Origin: an uncultured Eggerthellaceae bacterium
Lineage (GTDB): Bacteria; Actinomycetota; Coriobacteriia; Coriobacteriales; Eggerthellaceae
Reading direction: 5' to 3'
DNA length: 45,774 nucleotides
NCBI GenBank assembly: GCA_949840905.1
Contig: CATKXW010000018.1
Span: forward strand, 1-45,774
Shown here: piece after piece, positions 25,657 through 33,506 of the stretch
How positions within the stretch are numbered: the first letter of the stretch is position 1
Layout: each line of letters begins with the position of its first letter
Translations under genes and position numbers: made by a program
Notes under the pieces: generated by a model
Told to the model about the DNA's origin: nothing
What the model saw: the letters and a program-made list of their open reading frames with translations, nothing else
Databases searched by the model: none

Positions 25657-27957
25657 TCAGGGACGGATGGTACGGGGGACAGGAGCGGTGCAGTCTATGA
25701 TGGTGGAGGCGGTGCCGCTAGGGATGGTGGGGGTGGGGAAAACGGAGACGGCGAGGCGAAGCTCGTCGTTCACCTGGTCGAGAGAGCGCGGCGCGGGCTC
25801 GCCTGTCAGGTTAGCCGACGTAGTAGCAAGCGGGCTTCCCACGGCATCGATGAGCATGCGGATGTGCGGACAGCCGGGCATGCGCAAAGCTACGGTGCCC
25901 TCAGCGCTACGGAACGCAGCAGGCACGGCATCGCTGGCGGCCACGATGATCGTAAGCCCCCCCGGCCAGCCGTTTCGGACCAGCTCATGGGCGTAGAGCG
26001 GCACATCGGCACCATAACGATCGAGGTCGTCGAGGCTCCCCACCAACCAAGCGACGGGCTGGTCTTCTGGGCGATGCTTCAAGCGAGCGAGCACGGCCGG
26101 GCTCGCGGCATGTTCTACGGCCACTCCGAGGCCGACCACGGTATCGGTCGGGAACAACAACGGCTCGCCGGCCCGCAACCGCGCGACGGCCCCCGCCAGG
26201 TCGAGAGCGTCAGCCATATGCTCCGCAGCATCTTTCGGGCCATGCATCACCTCTTCCACGATGGCCTCTGCCACCCGCAAGCCGTCCACCGCAGCGCTCA
26301 TGATGCCCCCGGCATAGCCGGCCCCCTCGCCGGCAGGATAGACCCCCTGCAACCGAGATCGCCCAACACTAGCTCCCAGCGCCTGAAAGCTCTCATCGCG
26401 CACCAGCCGCACCGGAGCGGAGCTGCGCGCTTCCACCCCGCACAGCACCGCCTCAGGATGCGCGAACCCCGGCAGCTTCCGATCGAGAGCGACAAGCCCG
26501 CGTTCCAGCGACCGTGCCACGAACGGCGGCAGGCACTCTCGCAGATCGCTCCACGCCACGCCGCGCGGATAGGTCGGCTCCACCAGCGAGCTCACCGTCC
26601 CCTGGGCATGGGCGAGGAAATCCCCCACGGTCTGGGCCGGCGCCGTATAAGGCGCTCCACCGCGCTCGATCCCCAACTGGAAGGCGTCTCGCTCCATGCG
26701 CCGTTGCAGCTCGATGCCCGCGAGCACATCATCGCCGGGCAGATCATCGGGCGCCACCTCCACCAAAAGCGCGCTGTTAGCATTGCGCCCATCGCGCGCA
26801 TAAGGGCTCATGCCGTTCACGCACAGGCCGCCCTCCTCGCTCGCTGCCGCCACCACCTCCCCGCCCGGGCACATGCAGAAGGTGTACACGCCGCGCGTCG
26901 CAGCCTCAGCGCTATCCTTAGCAGGGGCTTCCTCGTCATCCACGCGCACGGCCAGCTTATAGTCGGCCGCGCCCAAGGCGGGATGGACAGCGGCAGCGCC
27001 GTATTGCAGCTCATCGATGAAGGACTGCGGATGCTCGATGCGCACCCCCACGGCGAACCGTTTGCGCTCCATCGCCAGCCCCGCTCCCCGCAGCATCTCG
27101 TAGGTATCGCGCGCGGAATGGCCGCACGCCACCACGATGCGATCGGTCGGTATCCTCGATCGCTCTCCGCTGACCGTATCGGTGACCAACGCCGCCGCCA
27201 CGGCTCCTTCGACCAGGTCGACCCCATCGAAGCGCGTCCGGAACAACACGGTGCATCCGCGAGCGATCAGCTCTTCTCGCATCGAGGCCACCACCTGCGG
27301 CAACCGATCGGTACCGATGTGGGGCTTCGCGTCCACGAGGATGGAGCCAGGGGCACCATGCTCCACGAAGGTCTCTAGCACGCGCCTGATGTGAGGGCTT
27401 TTGATGCCCGTGTTCAGCTTGCCGTCGGAGAACGTGCCAGCCCCCCCCTCCCCGAACTGGATGTTGCACTCCGTATCGAGCGCATCTCCTCCTGAGGGGC
27501 GGGCGAAGCCGTCGACCACCCGCTGGCGTTCCTCCACCGCTGCCCCTCGCTCGAGCAGCGTGACCGGGATGCCAGCGCGCGCCAGATAAAGGGCGCAGAA
27601 CAACCCTGCCGGCCCCGATCCCACCACGACCGGACGGACAGCTCCGCTCCGCTCGAACGCCTCTGCCACCTGAGGGATCGACCAGCAGCCGAGCTCCCGA
27701 TGGGGGTTCACGGCCACTCCGCGCCGTGGGCGCAGCGCAGCCGGATCATCGCAGGACGGCACCGCTGCCACCACGGTGACCACACCATGAACGTCGCTCT
27801 TCTTGCGCGCGTCGATGCTGCGCTTGAGAAGGCGCACCGCAGCGAGGGCCGACGGCTCCACGCCCAAGGCGCACGCCACCTCCTCGTGCAACATCCTCTC
27901 GTTCTCGGGCAGAAGAGCGTCGAGGCTCACAGGGATGTTCGAGCATCGCAGCTCCAT
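25657..27957 (-). CDS. FAD-dependent dehydrogenase fused to Sua5/YrdC domain
   Basis: 766 residues in one uninterrupted frame. Residues 1-570 are a COG2509-type FAD-dependent dehydrogenase: an N-terminal alpha/beta part, then the dinucleotide fold GSGPAGLF (113-120) and ERGAAVEERQRVVDGF, and further on CNIQFGEGGAGTFSDGKL and a GYAGGIMSAAVDG FAD-closing motif. Residues of about 581-766 are a Sua5/YrdC/TsaC domain, which makes threonylcarbamoyl-AMP for tRNA t6A: PTDTVVGLGV, KHRPEDQPVAWLV, VALRMP, TTSANLTGEP and PSGTASTIID are all present. The two are normally separate proteins. An internal ATG (26217) could also give free YrdC. AGGAGG precedes the start, and the upstream flavoprotein gene ends one base away, so they are coupled. 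Confidence 0.88.
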   Translation of the reverse strand: MELRCSNIPVSLDALLPENERMLHEEVACALGVEPSALAAVRLLKRSIDARKKSDVHGVVTVVAAVPSCDDPAALRPRRGVAVNPHRELGCWSIPQVAEAFERSGAVRPVVVGSGPAGLFCALYLARAGIPVTLLERGAAVEERQRVVDGFARPSGGDALDTECNIQFGEGGAGTFSDGKLNTGIKSPHIRRVLETFVEHGAPGSILVDAKPHIGTDRLPQVVASMREELIARGCTVLFRTRFDGVDLVEGAVAAALVTDTVSGERSRIPTDRIVVACGHSARDTYEMLRGAGLAMERKRFAVGVRIEHPQSFIDELQYGAAAVHPALGAADYKLAVRVDDEEAPAKDSAEAATRGVYTFCMCPGGEVVAAASEEGGLCVNGMSPYARDGRNANSALLVEVAPDDLPGDDVLAGIELQRRMERDAFQLGIERGGAPYTAPAQTVGDFLAHAQGTVSSLVEPTYPRGVAWSDLRECLPPFVARSLERGLVALDRKLPGFAHPEAVLCGVEARSSAPVRLVRDESFQALGASVGRSRLQGVYPAGEGAGYAGGIMSAAVDGLRVAEAIVEEVMHGPKDAAEHMADALDLAGAVARLRAGEPLLFPTDTVVGLGVAVEHAASPAVLARLKHRPEDQPVAWLVGSLDDLDRYGADVPLYAHELVRNGWPGGLTIIVAASDAVPAAFRSAEGTVALRMPGCPHIRMLIDAVGSPLATTSANLTGEPAPRSLDQVNDELRLAVSVFPTPTIPSGTASTIIDCTAPVPRTIRP

Positions 27958-27958
27958 G

Positions 27959-29290
27959 CTAGGTCACCTCCTGACCGCCAGCGTCCGACGCGGCGGCCCG
28001 CCCGGCCAGAAGACCGCTGCTCCATGCCCAATGCAGGTTGAAGCCTCCGCAGGCCCCGTCCACGTCCACCGCTTCGCCCACCACGAACAGCCCTGGAGCC
28101 TTCCGCACCTCCAAAGTAGCAGGATCGAGGGCCTCCACCGCCACGCCACCGCGCCTTACCTGGCACTGGCGCGCATCGCTGATGCCCTCCACCGTGAAGC
28201 GCAGGCCTCGCACGACGCCATCGAGGCGGTCGAGGCCCGCAGGCTCCCACGGCTGCCGCTCGTCCACCTGCGCCCGGTCGCATAGCACGCGAGCTACCGG
28301 CGGCAGCGCCATGCCGCGAAGGATGTCGCCATAGGTGGGAACGACGCCATGGATGCGTTCTGAGCGCTCCGCGCGGCTGCGCAACGAGGCCTCTTCGGGG
28401 AGGGCGGCCGCTACCAGCAGGTCGAGGACGACCTCGTCGCCGACCTGCGCCTGCCGCGACAGATCGAACACTGCGATGCCCGACAGGCCATAGGGACGGA
28501 AGAGCACCTCCCCACGCTCGCAGCGCACGACGCGTCCCTCGCGCATCAGCGTAGCGGCGCACCGCAGCCGTATGTTGTCGAGCTGCTTGGTGAGCCGCTT
28601 GTCCGCCGCGACCACCGCGAGCGGCCCTAGCACCGGCTCCTGGAGCTTCCAAGGCAGCCCGAGCTCGCCAGCCAACCGTGGTTGCAACGCCCCACCGCAT
28701 GCGATGATGACACGATGGGCGCAAAGCTCGCGCTCATCGGAGGCGCGCAGCCGAAAGAGCCCCGACGAGGGGTCGGATACGATGCTCTCCACAGCGAGCT
28801 CCGTGAGCATCTCCACCTGCGCGGCCTCCATCGCCGCTCGCAGCACATCCAGCACCGAGGTCGCCTTGTTCGCGAGAGGATAGAGCCGCCCCTCCCCTTC
28901 CTCGCGCCAAAGGAGCCCATGATCGGCGAAGAACCGCGTGACCGCGCATCCGACTTCCGCGAAGGGCAGAGCGTCCCTTGGCGGGAAGGCCGCTTCCGCA
29001 GCTGCCAGAACGCGCCCGACGAACTCCCCGTTGCGATAGCGCGAGTCCAGGTCGCAGCCGCACGGAGCACCAGCGGTCGCATCCCAGGCCAACCGAGCGT
29101 TCGAGAAGTTGCAGCGGCCGTTGCCCGTAGCGAGCACGGTGCGCCCCACCCGATCGGTGGCCTCGCACAAAACGACGCGCACCCCAGGACCACCGGCCTC
29201 GGCCGCGGCGATGGCCGCCGCCATGCCAGCCGCCCCTGCGCCCACGATGACGATGGTGCGCCCGCTTTCATTCGTCCCGCATTGCTCCAT
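27959..29290 (-). CDS. HI0933/BaiN-family flavoprotein (NAD(P)/FAD oxidoreductase)
   Basis: 443 residues. The Rossmann motif VIVGAGAAGMAAAIAAAEAG lies at about 14-33, followed by ATGNGRCNFSNARL, the signature of HI0933-like flavoproteins, and a closing VGEAVDVDGACGGFNLHWAWSSG typical of the family. Members include BaiN, which acts in bile acid metabolism, but most have no known substrate. FAD binding is well supported; the reaction is not. It is transcribed just upstream of the FAD-YrdC fusion, with the stop and next start almost touching, and 28 bp after the ABC permease gene. A run of minus-strand genes from 31992 to 25657 may be one transcript. Confidence 0.88.
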   Translation of the reverse strand: MEQCGTNESGRTIVIVGAGAAGMAAAIAAAEAGGPGVRVVLCEATDRVGRTVLATGNGRCNFSNARLAWDATAGAPCGCDLDSRYRNGEFVGRVLAAAEAAFPPRDALPFAEVGCAVTRFFADHGLLWREEGEGRLYPLANKATSVLDVLRAAMEAAQVEMLTELAVESIVSDPSSGLFRLRASDERELCAHRVIIACGGALQPRLAGELGLPWKLQEPVLGPLAVVAADKRLTKQLDNIRLRCAATLMREGRVVRCERGEVLFRPYGLSGIAVFDLSRQAQVGDEVVLDLLVAAALPEEASLRSRAERSERIHGVVPTYGDILRGMALPPVARVLCDRAQVDERQPWEPAGLDRLDGVVRGLRFTVEGISDARQCQVRRGGVAVEALDPATLEVRKAPGLFVVGEAVDVDGACGGFNLHWAWSSGLLAGRAAASDAGGQEVT

Positions 29291-29318: not shown

Positions 29319-30044
29319 TCATCGGCGAGCGAGCTTTCGCTCGGCCAGGTCGAAGGCTTCGTAGATGATGATGCCCATGAACGCCATGGCGATGATGCCC
29401 GCGAACATCCGCGCGAATTCCAACATCGACCAGGCGTGCATGATGAAGTAGCCCAAACCGGTGGACCCGGCCATGGACTCGGCGATGAACAAGATGGCCA
29501 CGGCGGTGCCGGTGGTGATGCGCAGGGCCGTGAACAGACTGGGCATCGATGCGGGCACGGTCACCTCGCGGAATATCTGCCAGCGGTTCGCGCCCAGCGA
29601 GCACAGGGAGAGCACCGCCGAGGGCGGGATGGCCTTCGCAGCATCGCGCATGGTGACGAGCATCTGGAAGAACACCGCGATGGAGATGAGGATGACCTTC
29701 GCCTCTCCACCGAGACCGAACAGCACGAACAGCACCGGCAAGAGCACTATCTTCGGAAGGGGATAGAGGATGTAGAGAGCCGGTCCCAAGACAGCATCGG
29801 CCCGTTGCGAACGGCCGAGCCACAGTCCCAACGGCGCCCCCAGCATGGTGCCTATGACCATGGAGAGCAGGATGCGCTCGAAGCTCACCCAGAACTCGGG
29901 CATGATAGCGCCAAGCTCCTGGCTTAGCACCGGGATGGTATCCCAAGGGGTGGGCAGCGCGGGCGAGTGCGCCGCCAGGGCCAAAAGCCACCACAGCGCG
30001 ATCACCAGCAGCGTGCCCCATGCGTATCCGAGAGCCTTGTTCAT
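29319..30044 (-). CDS. ABC importer permease, SsuC/TauC type
   Basis: 241 residues with about six membrane segments. The EAA-type loop is SLGANRWQIFREVTVPASMPSLFTALRIT. The pattern is that of the nitrate/sulfonate/taurine/pyrimidine-precursor import permeases. Its start overlaps the stop of the ATPase gene by 4 bp (ATGA type), so the two are coupled. It forms a complete importer with the ATPase and the lipoprotein upstream. Substrate unknown: sulfonate, taurine and thiamine precursor are all possible. Confidence 0.9.
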   Translation of the reverse strand: MNKALGYAWGTLLVIALWWLLALAAHSPALPTPWDTIPVLSQELGAIMPEFWVSFERILLSMVIGTMLGAPLGLWLGRSQRADAVLGPALYILYPLPKIVLLPVLFVLFGLGGEAKVILISIAVFFQMLVTMRDAAKAIPPSAVLSLCSLGANRWQIFREVTVPASMPSLFTALRITTGTAVAILFIAESMAGSTGLGYFIMHAWSMLEFARMFAGIIAMAFMGIIIYEAFDLAERKLARR

Positions 30045-30889
30045 CGGACACCTCCTCCTGGCCGTTCGCCAGAAGAGGCAGCCCCTTTCCCGCGCTGCCC
30101 CTCGGCAAGAGCGAGCGCATCGGCATCCTCTTGGGCGGCCACCTCCTGCGCTAAGAGCTCGCGTACCTCATCGCAACGGCGATGGAACGCCTCGGCGAGG
30201 CGATAACCATCCTGCCCGGCTTCGGGATTTCGGATGGTGCGCACCACGCGCCCGGGCCGTGCGCTCATGATGGCGATGCGCTGGCCGAGGAACACCGCCT
30301 CTTCGATGGAATGGGTGACCAGCACCTGGGCATAGCCCTCGCGACGCCACAGGTCGCGCAGCAGGTCTTGGATGCGCTCGCGCAACAGGGCGTCCAAAGC
30401 GCTCAGCGGCTCGTCCATCAGCAGCAGCCGCACATCGAGGGCTAGCGCACGGGCCAGGGCCAAACGTTGCTGCATCCCTCCCGACAGCTCGGATGGGTAG
30501 GCTTTGGCGAAGTCCGCCAGACCCACCAGCGCAAGGGCCTCTTGAGCCCGTTCGCGCCGTTCGGCCCGAGCCACGCCGCGCACCTTCAAGCCCAGCTCGG
30601 CGTTGGCACCCACGGTGGCCCAAGGCAGCAACCCGAAATCCTGCAGGATGAGGGCGGTATCACGTCGAGGGGCGAGGAGGGGGGCGCCTTCCAGCAGCAC
30701 CTCGCCGCTCGTGGGCCGCAGAAGGCCGCAAGCCATGCGCAACAGGCTCGACTTCCCGCAACCGGAAGGCCCGATGATAGCAAGGGACTCCCCCGGCCCG
30801 ACGGACAGGTCGAGGGAGCCCAGCGCCGCCACGGCGGCACTCTCGCGTTCATAGGTGAGCGCGACGTCTTTGAACTGTAGATATTCCAT
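30041..30889 (-). CDS. ABC importer ATPase, SsuB/TauB type
   Basis: 282 residues from the ATG at 30889, where the domain starts (MEYLQFKDVALTY); AGG lies five bases upstream. Walker A is GPSGCGKSS near residue 37, the signature is LSGGMQQRLALARAL near 130, and Walker B LLLMDEPLSALD follows. A C-terminal stretch of about 60 residues beyond the ABC domain is Ala/Glu-rich and of unknown role. It sits between the binding lipoprotein (38 bp upstream) and the permease (4-bp overlap). Confidence 0.92.
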   Translation of the reverse strand: MEYLQFKDVALTYERESAAVAALGSLDLSVGPGESLAIIGPSGCGKSSLLRMACGLLRPTSGEVLLEGAPLLAPRRDTALILQDFGLLPWATVGANAELGLKVRGVARAERRERAQEALALVGLADFAKAYPSELSGGMQQRLALARALALDVRLLLMDEPLSALDALLRERIQDLLRDLWRREGYAQVLVTHSIEEAVFLGQRIAIMSARPGRVVRTIRNPEAGQDGYRLAEAFHRRCDEVRELLAQEVAAQEDADALALAEGQRGKGAASSGERPGGGVR

Positions 30890-30927
30890 AGCGCCTAATG
30901 GTACGGCAAACCGACGCATCGGTGGAG

Positions 30928-31992
30928 CTAGGCGAGCGTGAAGGTGCCCGTTTCCTCGTCGTAGGTCACAGCACCCTCGACATAGCCCTTCTTCGTCATC
31001 CATGCGAGCACCGGGTCCACCAGCTGCTGGGGCACGCGCACCAGCGTGGTCGCCCCTTCGGCAGCAGCCCCGTCCTTGGTAGCGAGCGGATAGGCGCTCA
31101 CAGGGTACCCATCAGCGATGGTGCTGTTCAAGTTCGCTTTCTCCACCAGCAGCGGACGGAACGCCGCCGGGTCCTCGTTGATGAGCGCCACAGCCGCATC
31201 CCATGCAGAAGCCACAGCCTCGATGACCTCAGCGTTGTCCGCAGCCCAAGCGGTGCGAGCCACCATGACGGACTGGGAGATGTTCTCCCCGCTCGCATCA
31301 TCGGCTATGGTCCGCATGCCCTGAGCCTCTCCCAAGGCGAGCAGCGAGCCTGGCAAGGCTGCCGACTGGGCCGAGCCGTTGGCCATGAGCGCATAGCGCT
31401 CCGGCAAGCTGGCCACCTCTTCGTGGGCGATGGTGGCCGGATCGATGCCAGCCTGCTCGCACAGCTTGTCGAACACGTATTCCGGCACGGTATTCGCTGC
31501 CACGCTCACCGAGAGGCCCACGAGATCCTGCAGCGAGGCGACCGAGCTGTTCCCGTTCACCTGGATGCCGAAGCGTCCCTGCTCTGGTGTGGCGCCGAGG
31601 GTGATCCACTCCATGGTGACATCAGTGCCCGACTCGCACAGCTTCACCGCCCGCATGATGTCGGTCATGGCCATATCGACCTGACCGGCGGTGATGGCGG
31701 CTGACAGGCTGGGAGCCGAATCGAACGGTATGACCTCGACGGCCACGTCAGCGGCCGCGAACAGGTCCTGCTGCTCGGCCACCCACAGAGGCAGGATGTC
31801 CTCGGTGGGCATGGTCCCCACCTTCACGGTGCGCACGAGCGCATCCGCAGCGCTGCTGCCAGCGCTGGGAGCGGGCGCGCTACAGCCGGAAAGCAGCATC
31901 GCGAAGGCGAGGCCGGCCGTCAACGCCAGAGCAGCTCCCTTCCTCACGAGCGCCCTTCCCGAACGGGGGGTGATGAACGTCTTGTCTTGCAT
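30928..31992 (-). CDS. ABC importer substrate-binding lipoprotein, SsuA/NMT1-like
   Basis: 354 residues from the ATG at 31992 (AAAGG eight bases upstream). The signal peptide ends with the lipobox LLSGC near residue 35, so it is tethered on the outer face. The body starts VKVGTMPTEDILPLWVAEQQDLFAAADVAVEVIPFDSAPSLSAAITAGQVDMAMTD, typical of NMT1/SsuA-type binding proteins for small organic anions or vitamin precursors. First gene of the three-gene importer. The ligand cannot be read from sequence. Confidence 0.9.
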   Translation of the reverse strand: MQDKTFITPRSGRALVRKGAALALTAGLAFAMLLSGCSAPAPSAGSSAADALVRTVKVGTMPTEDILPLWVAEQQDLFAAADVAVEVIPFDSAPSLSAAITAGQVDMAMTDIMRAVKLCESGTDVTMEWITLGATPEQGRFGIQVNGNSSVASLQDLVGLSVSVAANTVPEYVFDKLCEQAGIDPATIAHEEVASLPERYALMANGSAQSAALPGSLLALGEAQGMRTIADDASGENISQSVMVARTAWAADNAEVIEAVASAWDAAVALINEDPAAFRPLLVEKANLNSTIADGYPVSAYPLATKDGAAAEGATTLVRVPQQLVDPVLAWMTKKGYVEGAVTYDEETGTFTLA

Positions 31993-32078
31993 GTCGATCG
32001 CCTTTCCTCCTCGAAGGGTTCCTTCTATGCTGAAGAGCCTCTCTTCCCGAGCGGAAGAAGACGGCTCCCGAAGCCCCG

Positions 32079-33506
32079 TCACTTGCTCTCGTACTGTGGG
32101 ATCGGATCGGTGTCGCGCTCCAACAGGTTCCCATCGTAGACGTAGTGCTTGGTCTCGCGGGCTATCAGGCCCGACAGCAGCAGCACCACGATGATGTTGG
32201 GCACGGCCATGAGCGCGTTGGTGATATCGGAGACGGTCCATACCACGTCCCCGATGCCGATGGCCCCGAGGAACGCCACTACCACGTAGAGGATCTGATA
32301 AGGACGGATGGCCCTCTTGCCCAGCAGGTAGGTGATGCAGCGGTTGCCGTAATAGGACCAGCCCAAGATGGTGGAATAGGCGAACAGGATCATGCCCACC
32401 ACCAAGATGGGCGTGCCGATCACGGGGATCTGGGCGAAAGCGGCGCTGGTCAGCTCGGCTCCTTTGGTGATGGTCTCAGCGGAGATGCCCGATACGATGT
32501 CTCCGTTGGCCAACATGGTCGACACCAACACCAGGCCCGTTAGCAAGCAGATGACCACCGTGTCCCAGAACGTGCCGGTCATGGACACCAGCGCCTGGCG
32601 GGCCGGGTTGCGCGTGGCTGCCGCCGAGGCGACGATGGGCGCCGAGCCCAGGCCCGACTCGTTGGAGAACAGCCCGCGAGCGCAGCCGAACTGCAACGCC
32701 ACGACGATGGTGGAGCCGAGCACGCCGCCGAACACCGACTGCGGATCGAAGGCGCCCACCACGATGGCGCACAGAGCCGGCCACACGAACTGCCAGTTGA
32801 CCCCCAATATGATGAGGCAACCCAAGGTGTAGAGCACCGCCATGAGCGGCACCAGCTTCTCGCACACCCGCGAGATGATCTTCACGCCGCCGAACACCAC
32901 CAGCGATATGAGGATGACGATAGCGATGCCGCACGCCCAGGTAGGGATACCGGGGATGTTCGTGGTGACCACCTCGGTCATGGCCGAGCTCTGCACGGCC
33001 GCGCCGATGCCGAACGAAGCGATGGCCGCCAGGCCTGCGAACAGCACCGCGCCCAACTTCGCCCACCACGGCGTCACGCCATCCTTCTTGAACGCGCGCT
33101 CCCAAGCATACATGGCACCGCCGAGCATGTTGCCGTTATGGTCCTTGACGCGATACTTCACCGCCGCGAAAGTCTCGGAGTACTTCGTCGCGATGCCGAA
33201 GACGCCGGTGAGCCACATCCAGAACACAGCGCCCGGACCACCGGCGAGGATGGCGGTGCCCACGCCCACGATGTTGCCGGTGCCGATGGTGGCGGAAAGG
33301 GCCGTGCACAACGCGCCGAACTGGCTGATGTCGCCTGGAGCGTCGGGGTCCTTCGTGATGGAGAGCCTGATGCCCGTGCCCAGCTTGCGCTGGATGAACC
33401 CGGTGCGGAATGTGAGGAACACATGGGCTCCCAGCAAGATCACGAGCATGGGCACGCCCCATACAGCCGCATCCAGAGCATCTATGAACTCGATGATGGC
33501 TTCCAT
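32079..33506 (-). CDS. AGCS-family sodium/alanine symporter
   Basis: 475 residues with about ten membrane segments. ALSATIGTGNIVGVGTAILAGGPGAVFWMWLTG near residue 70 is the AGCS signature, and SNESGLGSAPI near residue 270 is a second family block. AGCS proteins bring in alanine or glycine with sodium. The gene is monocistronic by spacing: 86 bp separate it from the ABC importer gene downstream, and the FMN riboswitch region lies upstream in the opposite direction. Confidence 0.93.
   Translation of the reverse strand: MEAIIEFIDALDAAVWGVPMLVILLGAHVFLTFRTGFIQRKLGTGIRLSITKDPDAPGDISQFGALCTALSATIGTGNIVGVGTAILAGGPGAVFWMWLTGVFGIATKYSETFAAVKYRVKDHNGNMLGGAMYAWERAFKKDGVTPWWAKLGAVLFAGLAAIASFGIGAAVQSSAMTEVVTTNIPGIPTWACGIAIVILISLVVFGGVKIISRVCEKLVPLMAVLYTLGCLIILGVNWQFVWPALCAIVVGAFDPQSVFGGVLGSTIVVALQFGCARGLFSNESGLGSAPIVASAAATRNPARQALVSMTGTFWDTVVICLLTGLVLVSTMLANGDIVSGISAETITKGAELTSAAFAQIPVIGTPILVVGMILFAYSTILGWSYYGNRCITYLLGKRAIRPYQILYVVVAFLGAIGIGDVVWTVSDITNALMAVPNIIVVLLLSGLIARETKHYVYDGNLLERDTDPIPQYESK

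Follow-up and report, generated by a model that had tools for sequence, protein, structure and literature searches.

The TsaC/Sua5 family is defined by a KxR...SxN catalytic tetrad (PMC9654439, PMC10321239). Its domain occurs in single-domain TsaC proteins such as E. coli YrdC, in Sua5 and within the larger chains of HypF and TobZ, and the flavoproteins of COG2509 are represented by VP0956 of Vibrio parahaemolyticus (PDB 3nlc). No description of a flavoprotein-TsaC fusion was found in the literature searched. We analyzed a stretch of 45,774 nucleotides (the window, contig C18) from an Eggerthellaceae genome of 1.98 Mb and 98.5% completeness, whose closest named relatives, judged by the fusion protein described here, are Adlercreutzia, Slackia and other Eggerthellaceae. 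The features of the locus are as follows.

25657..27957, minus strand: FAD protein-TsaC fusion ORF of 766 amino acids, one uninterrupted frame with an ATG start
26248..27957, minus strand: COG2509-type FAD-dependent protein, residues 1-570, with PF21688 at 301-512, a VVGSGPAG FAD motif and a fold match to 3nlc
26188..26247, minus strand: linker, residues 571-590, of low pLDDT (63-72) and unlike the linkers of other fused genes
25660..26178, minus strand: TsaC/YrdC domain, residues 594-766, with PF01300 at 594-765 and KxR (LKHRP) and SxN (TTSANL) intact
26245..26249, minus strand: TGATG, a +1-frame stop codon overlapping an ATG of the TsaC frame
26215..26217, minus strand: internal ATG (residue 581), the proposed start of a free YrdC, with only GGAG upstream at 3-nt spacing
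27959..29290, minus strand: HI0933/YhiN-family flavoprotein (TIGR00275), directly upstream of the fusion
27964..27972, minus strand: Shine-Dalgarno sequence of the fusion gene, AGGAGGTGA, within the end of the HI0933 gene

The first-pass annotation had read this locus as an in-frame fusion of a flavoprotein to a YrdC domain, and that reading stands: the 766-residue frame is single and open, and both domains are matched in Pfam, FAD-depend_C (PF21688) with an E-value of 4e-71 (239.9 bits against a cut-off of 27) and Sua5_yciO_yrdC (PF01300) with 1e-36 (126.3 bits against 25.1). The Rossmann-type FAD-binding motif, near residue 110, has the GxGxxG pattern, third-codon-position G+C is unbroken across the junction, and the gene has a full Shine-Dalgarno sequence 6 nt upstream of its ATG. 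We regard the fusion as almost certainly real. Modeling with AlphaFold2 from a 36-row alignment gave a mean pLDDT of 90.2 and a pTM of 0.76, with both domains mostly above 90 and the linker falling to 63-72. In Foldseek the first half matched VP0956 (3nlc) with 42% identity and a TM score to the target of 0.88, and the second half matched Sua5/TsaC structures. The model fits two independently folding domains joined by a flexible linker, a reading drawn from pLDDT, pTM and the fold matches.

The key motifs of the YrdC domain had been noted as intact, and both LKHRP and TTSANL are indeed present; KxR and SxN are invariant in all 60 of the 60 Eggerthellaceae TsaC-domain sequences, every fused one included. 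The residue preceding SxN in the fusion is Thr, which is of the TsaC type, where Sua5 has Pro, and Pfam detected no SUA5 domain in the chain; membership of Sua5 was rejected on these two grounds. A carbamoyltransferase of the HypF/TobZ type was also rejected, there being no Kae1/TsaD match in the fusion and the genome's real HypF lying elsewhere. At the level of sequence the TsaC domain is divergent: it narrowly misses the NCBIfam equivalog TIGR00057 (119.6 against 123.2 bits, a naming threshold), for which G136 and G353, both fused relatives, reach 152 and 147 bits; the position after KxRPxx, which aligns with Asn62 of Sua5, is Gln here only and Lys in 59 of the 60 sequences; and the chain stops at residue 766, straight after the final RP. 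Judging from sequence, we infer that the domain still makes threonylcarbamoyl-AMP (TC-AMP).

PF01300 was found twice in the genome, in the fusion and in an 802-residue HypF composed of acylphosphatase, zinc fingers, YrdC and Kae1-like parts. A second, free tsaC was rejected because the sole further match is this HypF, which leaves the fusion as the only TsaC found. The suggestion that the fusion is the cell's only source of t6A precursor is thus supported, with no TsaC found elsewhere in the 98.5% complete genome, and a TsaC-domain search gave one copy in each of the fused genomes. The genome also encodes the remainder of the t6A pathway, since TsaE, TsaB, a RimI-like acetyltransferase and TsaD are encoded on contig C23 in a single 1009-residue frame (C23:12460-15489; locus L242:461-3490), a domain make-up that Pfam confirmed for this genome alone. 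End-to-end matches to TsaB-RimI-TsaD, in shorter frames without TsaE, are widespread across Eggerthellaceae, and frames of similar length that match the whole, with TsaE added, occur in several lineages of the family. Because these genes too are fused in Eggerthellaceae, the fusion of t6A genes looks like a habit of the family.

The in-frame ATG at 26217, which had been proposed to release free YrdC, is confirmed at residue 581 and lies exactly at the start of the domain, so that initiation there would yield a separate TsaC besides the fusion. The release itself fares less well, as the GGAG at 3-nt spacing makes a poor Shine-Dalgarno sequence compared with the strong one that precedes the fusion's first ATG, and no counterpart of the internal start is conserved among the other fused genes: G136, G353 and G301, for example, have linkers without an ATG. 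We regard free TsaC from this codon as possible but unlikely.

The genomes of 138 Eggerthellaceae were searched and about 80 stretches of them read. The flavoprotein and TsaC share one frame in 11 of the 138, distributed over 7 genera (the source genome G000, and G136, G276, G181, G353, G301, G187, G284, G266, G191 and G308, the fusion in G191 sitting on a broken contig). Most relatives keep the two as separate proteins, and in many of them tsaC lies far from COG2509. About 30 of the genomes read have a separate tsaC that begins no more than ∼250 nt past the end of the flavoprotein gene; in genus g6, which holds the closest flavoprotein relatives, the stop and start of the pair often overlap as ATGA, and G300 provides an example of a separate tsaC abutting or overlapping the flavoprotein stop (GGAGGCGCGATGAGG). 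In genus g28 (L212, L213 and L214) tsaC comes just after the flavoprotein gene but is encoded convergently on the other strand, and the adjacency therefore outlives an inversion. Outside Eggerthellaceae, both halves in one frame were found neither in the class genomes, among the matches listed, nor in the loci examined, and in those loci no tsaC was found beside COG2509.

Parsimony on the flavoprotein tree gives 6 changes between the fused and unfused states, or 5 when the long-branched flavoprotein half of G308 is removed; the TsaC-domain tree is too short to resolve the history of the fusion. The fused protein of G308 (L173) has 970 residues, with an N-terminal part that aligns poorly (the match runs from residue 107-108) and a repetitive linker of 61 codons. 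A single clade of fused genes was rejected by the AU test (p 1.2e-70, G308 left out), and with it one ancient fusion common to all, some losses being possible. The test allows {g1, g21, g22} and {g14, g24} each as a clade of its own, within which the changes may be gains or losses. The linkers vary from 4 to 61 codons and are mutually dissimilar. Since the fused genes are not monophyletic and their linkers are unconserved, these neighbors appear to have been fused several times, and a fair reading is at least four separate fusion events with some fission possible. In the window, the TGATG at 26249-26245 is possibly a relic of an unfused stop/start overlap; it resembles the overlaps of unfused relatives, and a small indel just upstream could thus have joined the genes. 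The patchy occurrence of the fusion, its origin from ancestral adjacency, the unconserved linkers and the separate proteins of most relatives leave the redox-coupled or moonlighting role that had been suggested without support. The pattern looks less like a sign of new chemistry than like a recurrent accident of neighboring genes, and a benefit from tethering could be an alternative cause of the repeated fusion of the same pair.

The HI0933 ORF stops 1 nt before the ATG of the fusion. Such a gap makes the proposed translational coupling of the two genes plausible, but the full AGGAGGTGA gives the fusion gene a ribosome site of its own, so coupling is possible but not required. HI0933 lies directly upstream of COG2509 in most Eggerthellaceae genomes and in most of the Clostridia loci examined, and the two are often neighbors in Clostridia and Coriobacteriia. 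Being so widespread, the pair is ordinary, and what holds locally of the flavin-flavin-YrdC unit once proposed is the adjacency of tsaC, seen in Eggerthellaceae only. HI0933 is immediately preceded, in the same orientation, by ABC transporter genes (permease, ATPase and NMT1/THI5-like binding protein; window 29319-32241, minus strand), which are seldom kept beside the pair in relatives.

In E. coli the product of yhiN is reportedly RdsA. Dihydrouridine D2449 in the 23S rRNA of E. coli is synthesized by RdsA (PMC12501074). The HI0933 protein of the window and E. coli YhiN both fall in TIGR00275 and are 25% identical, an identity that is no proof of the same reaction, and this subfamily also includes aminoacetone/amino-acid oxidases (4cnj). 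A functional coupling could be proposed on this basis, in which an HI0933 of the YhiN/RdsA subfamily, making rRNA dihydrouridine, would form an RNA-modification unit with COG2509 and TsaC, the tether serving a shared process linked to RNA or the ribosome. The pairing of HI0933 with COG2509 across Clostridia and Coriobacteriia, the adjoining tsaC in many Eggerthellaceae genera and the recurrence of the fusion are consistent with this. However, COG2509 is without known function, and tsaC is distant from it in many relatives and not beside it in the loci examined outside the family, and we consider such coupling improbable. If the RNA activity of HI0933 did hold here, HI0933-COG2509-TsaC might be an RNA-modification operon, although we give this little credence; COG2509 as a flavoenzyme acting on RNA or the ribosome with a YhiN/RdsA-type HI0933, its repeated fusion to TsaC marking a physical unit that links flavin-dependent RNA modification to t6A synthesis, is similarly doubtful. 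Least credible is that sequencing or assembly introduced an indel at the junction, the genes being in reality separate with an overlap like that of close relatives: the +1-frame TGA does fall exactly at the flavoprotein end, overlapping the TsaC-frame ATG, and G320, the only other sampled genome of the source genus, is unfused, but the junction has no homopolymer and an artifact is unlikely because 10 other genomes of six other genera have the same architecture with different linkers.

We consider it likely, on the sequence evidence, that operon neighbors merged into a bifunctional polypeptide that keeps both functions, TsaC still making TC-AMP. The COG2509 and tsaC genes would have been ancestral operon neighbors whose stop/start boundary was lost, presumably through a small indel at the overlap, giving one frame. 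The C-terminal domain would convert threonine, bicarbonate and ATP to threonylcarbamoyl-AMP, and the TsaE-TsaB-RimI-TsaD protein would transfer this precursor to A37 of tRNA; the flavoprotein half would retain its own redox reaction, the two halves acting independently on a flexible tether. The chemistry of the fusion is probably ordinary. Its significance lies in a domain architecture that the literature searched does not describe for this near-universal enzyme of tRNA modification, with the cell's only TsaC made within a flavoprotein, in a family whose t6A genes tend to fuse, and in a testable lead on the function of COG2509.

Among described systems, single-domain TsaC shares with the fusion the domain, the KxR...SxN tetrad, the Thr before SxN and the lack of a SUA5 domain; here, however, the domain is C-terminal in a flavoprotein, has no residues past the final RP and carries Q for the usual K. 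VP0956 has the same fold as the flavoprotein half (42% identity in the fold match), whereas the TsaC domain is absent from it. Sua5 resembles the fusion in having a TsaC domain in a two-domain protein, but it has the SUA5 domain that the fusion lacks and Pro as signature residue in place of Thr. A YrdC domain also sits inside a larger chain in HypF, in TobZ and in 8ide, a chain named TsaD that has a TsaC-like stretch; its partner in the first two is a Kae1-type transferase, which consumes the adenylate, whereas here it is a flavoprotein without a Kae1 domain.
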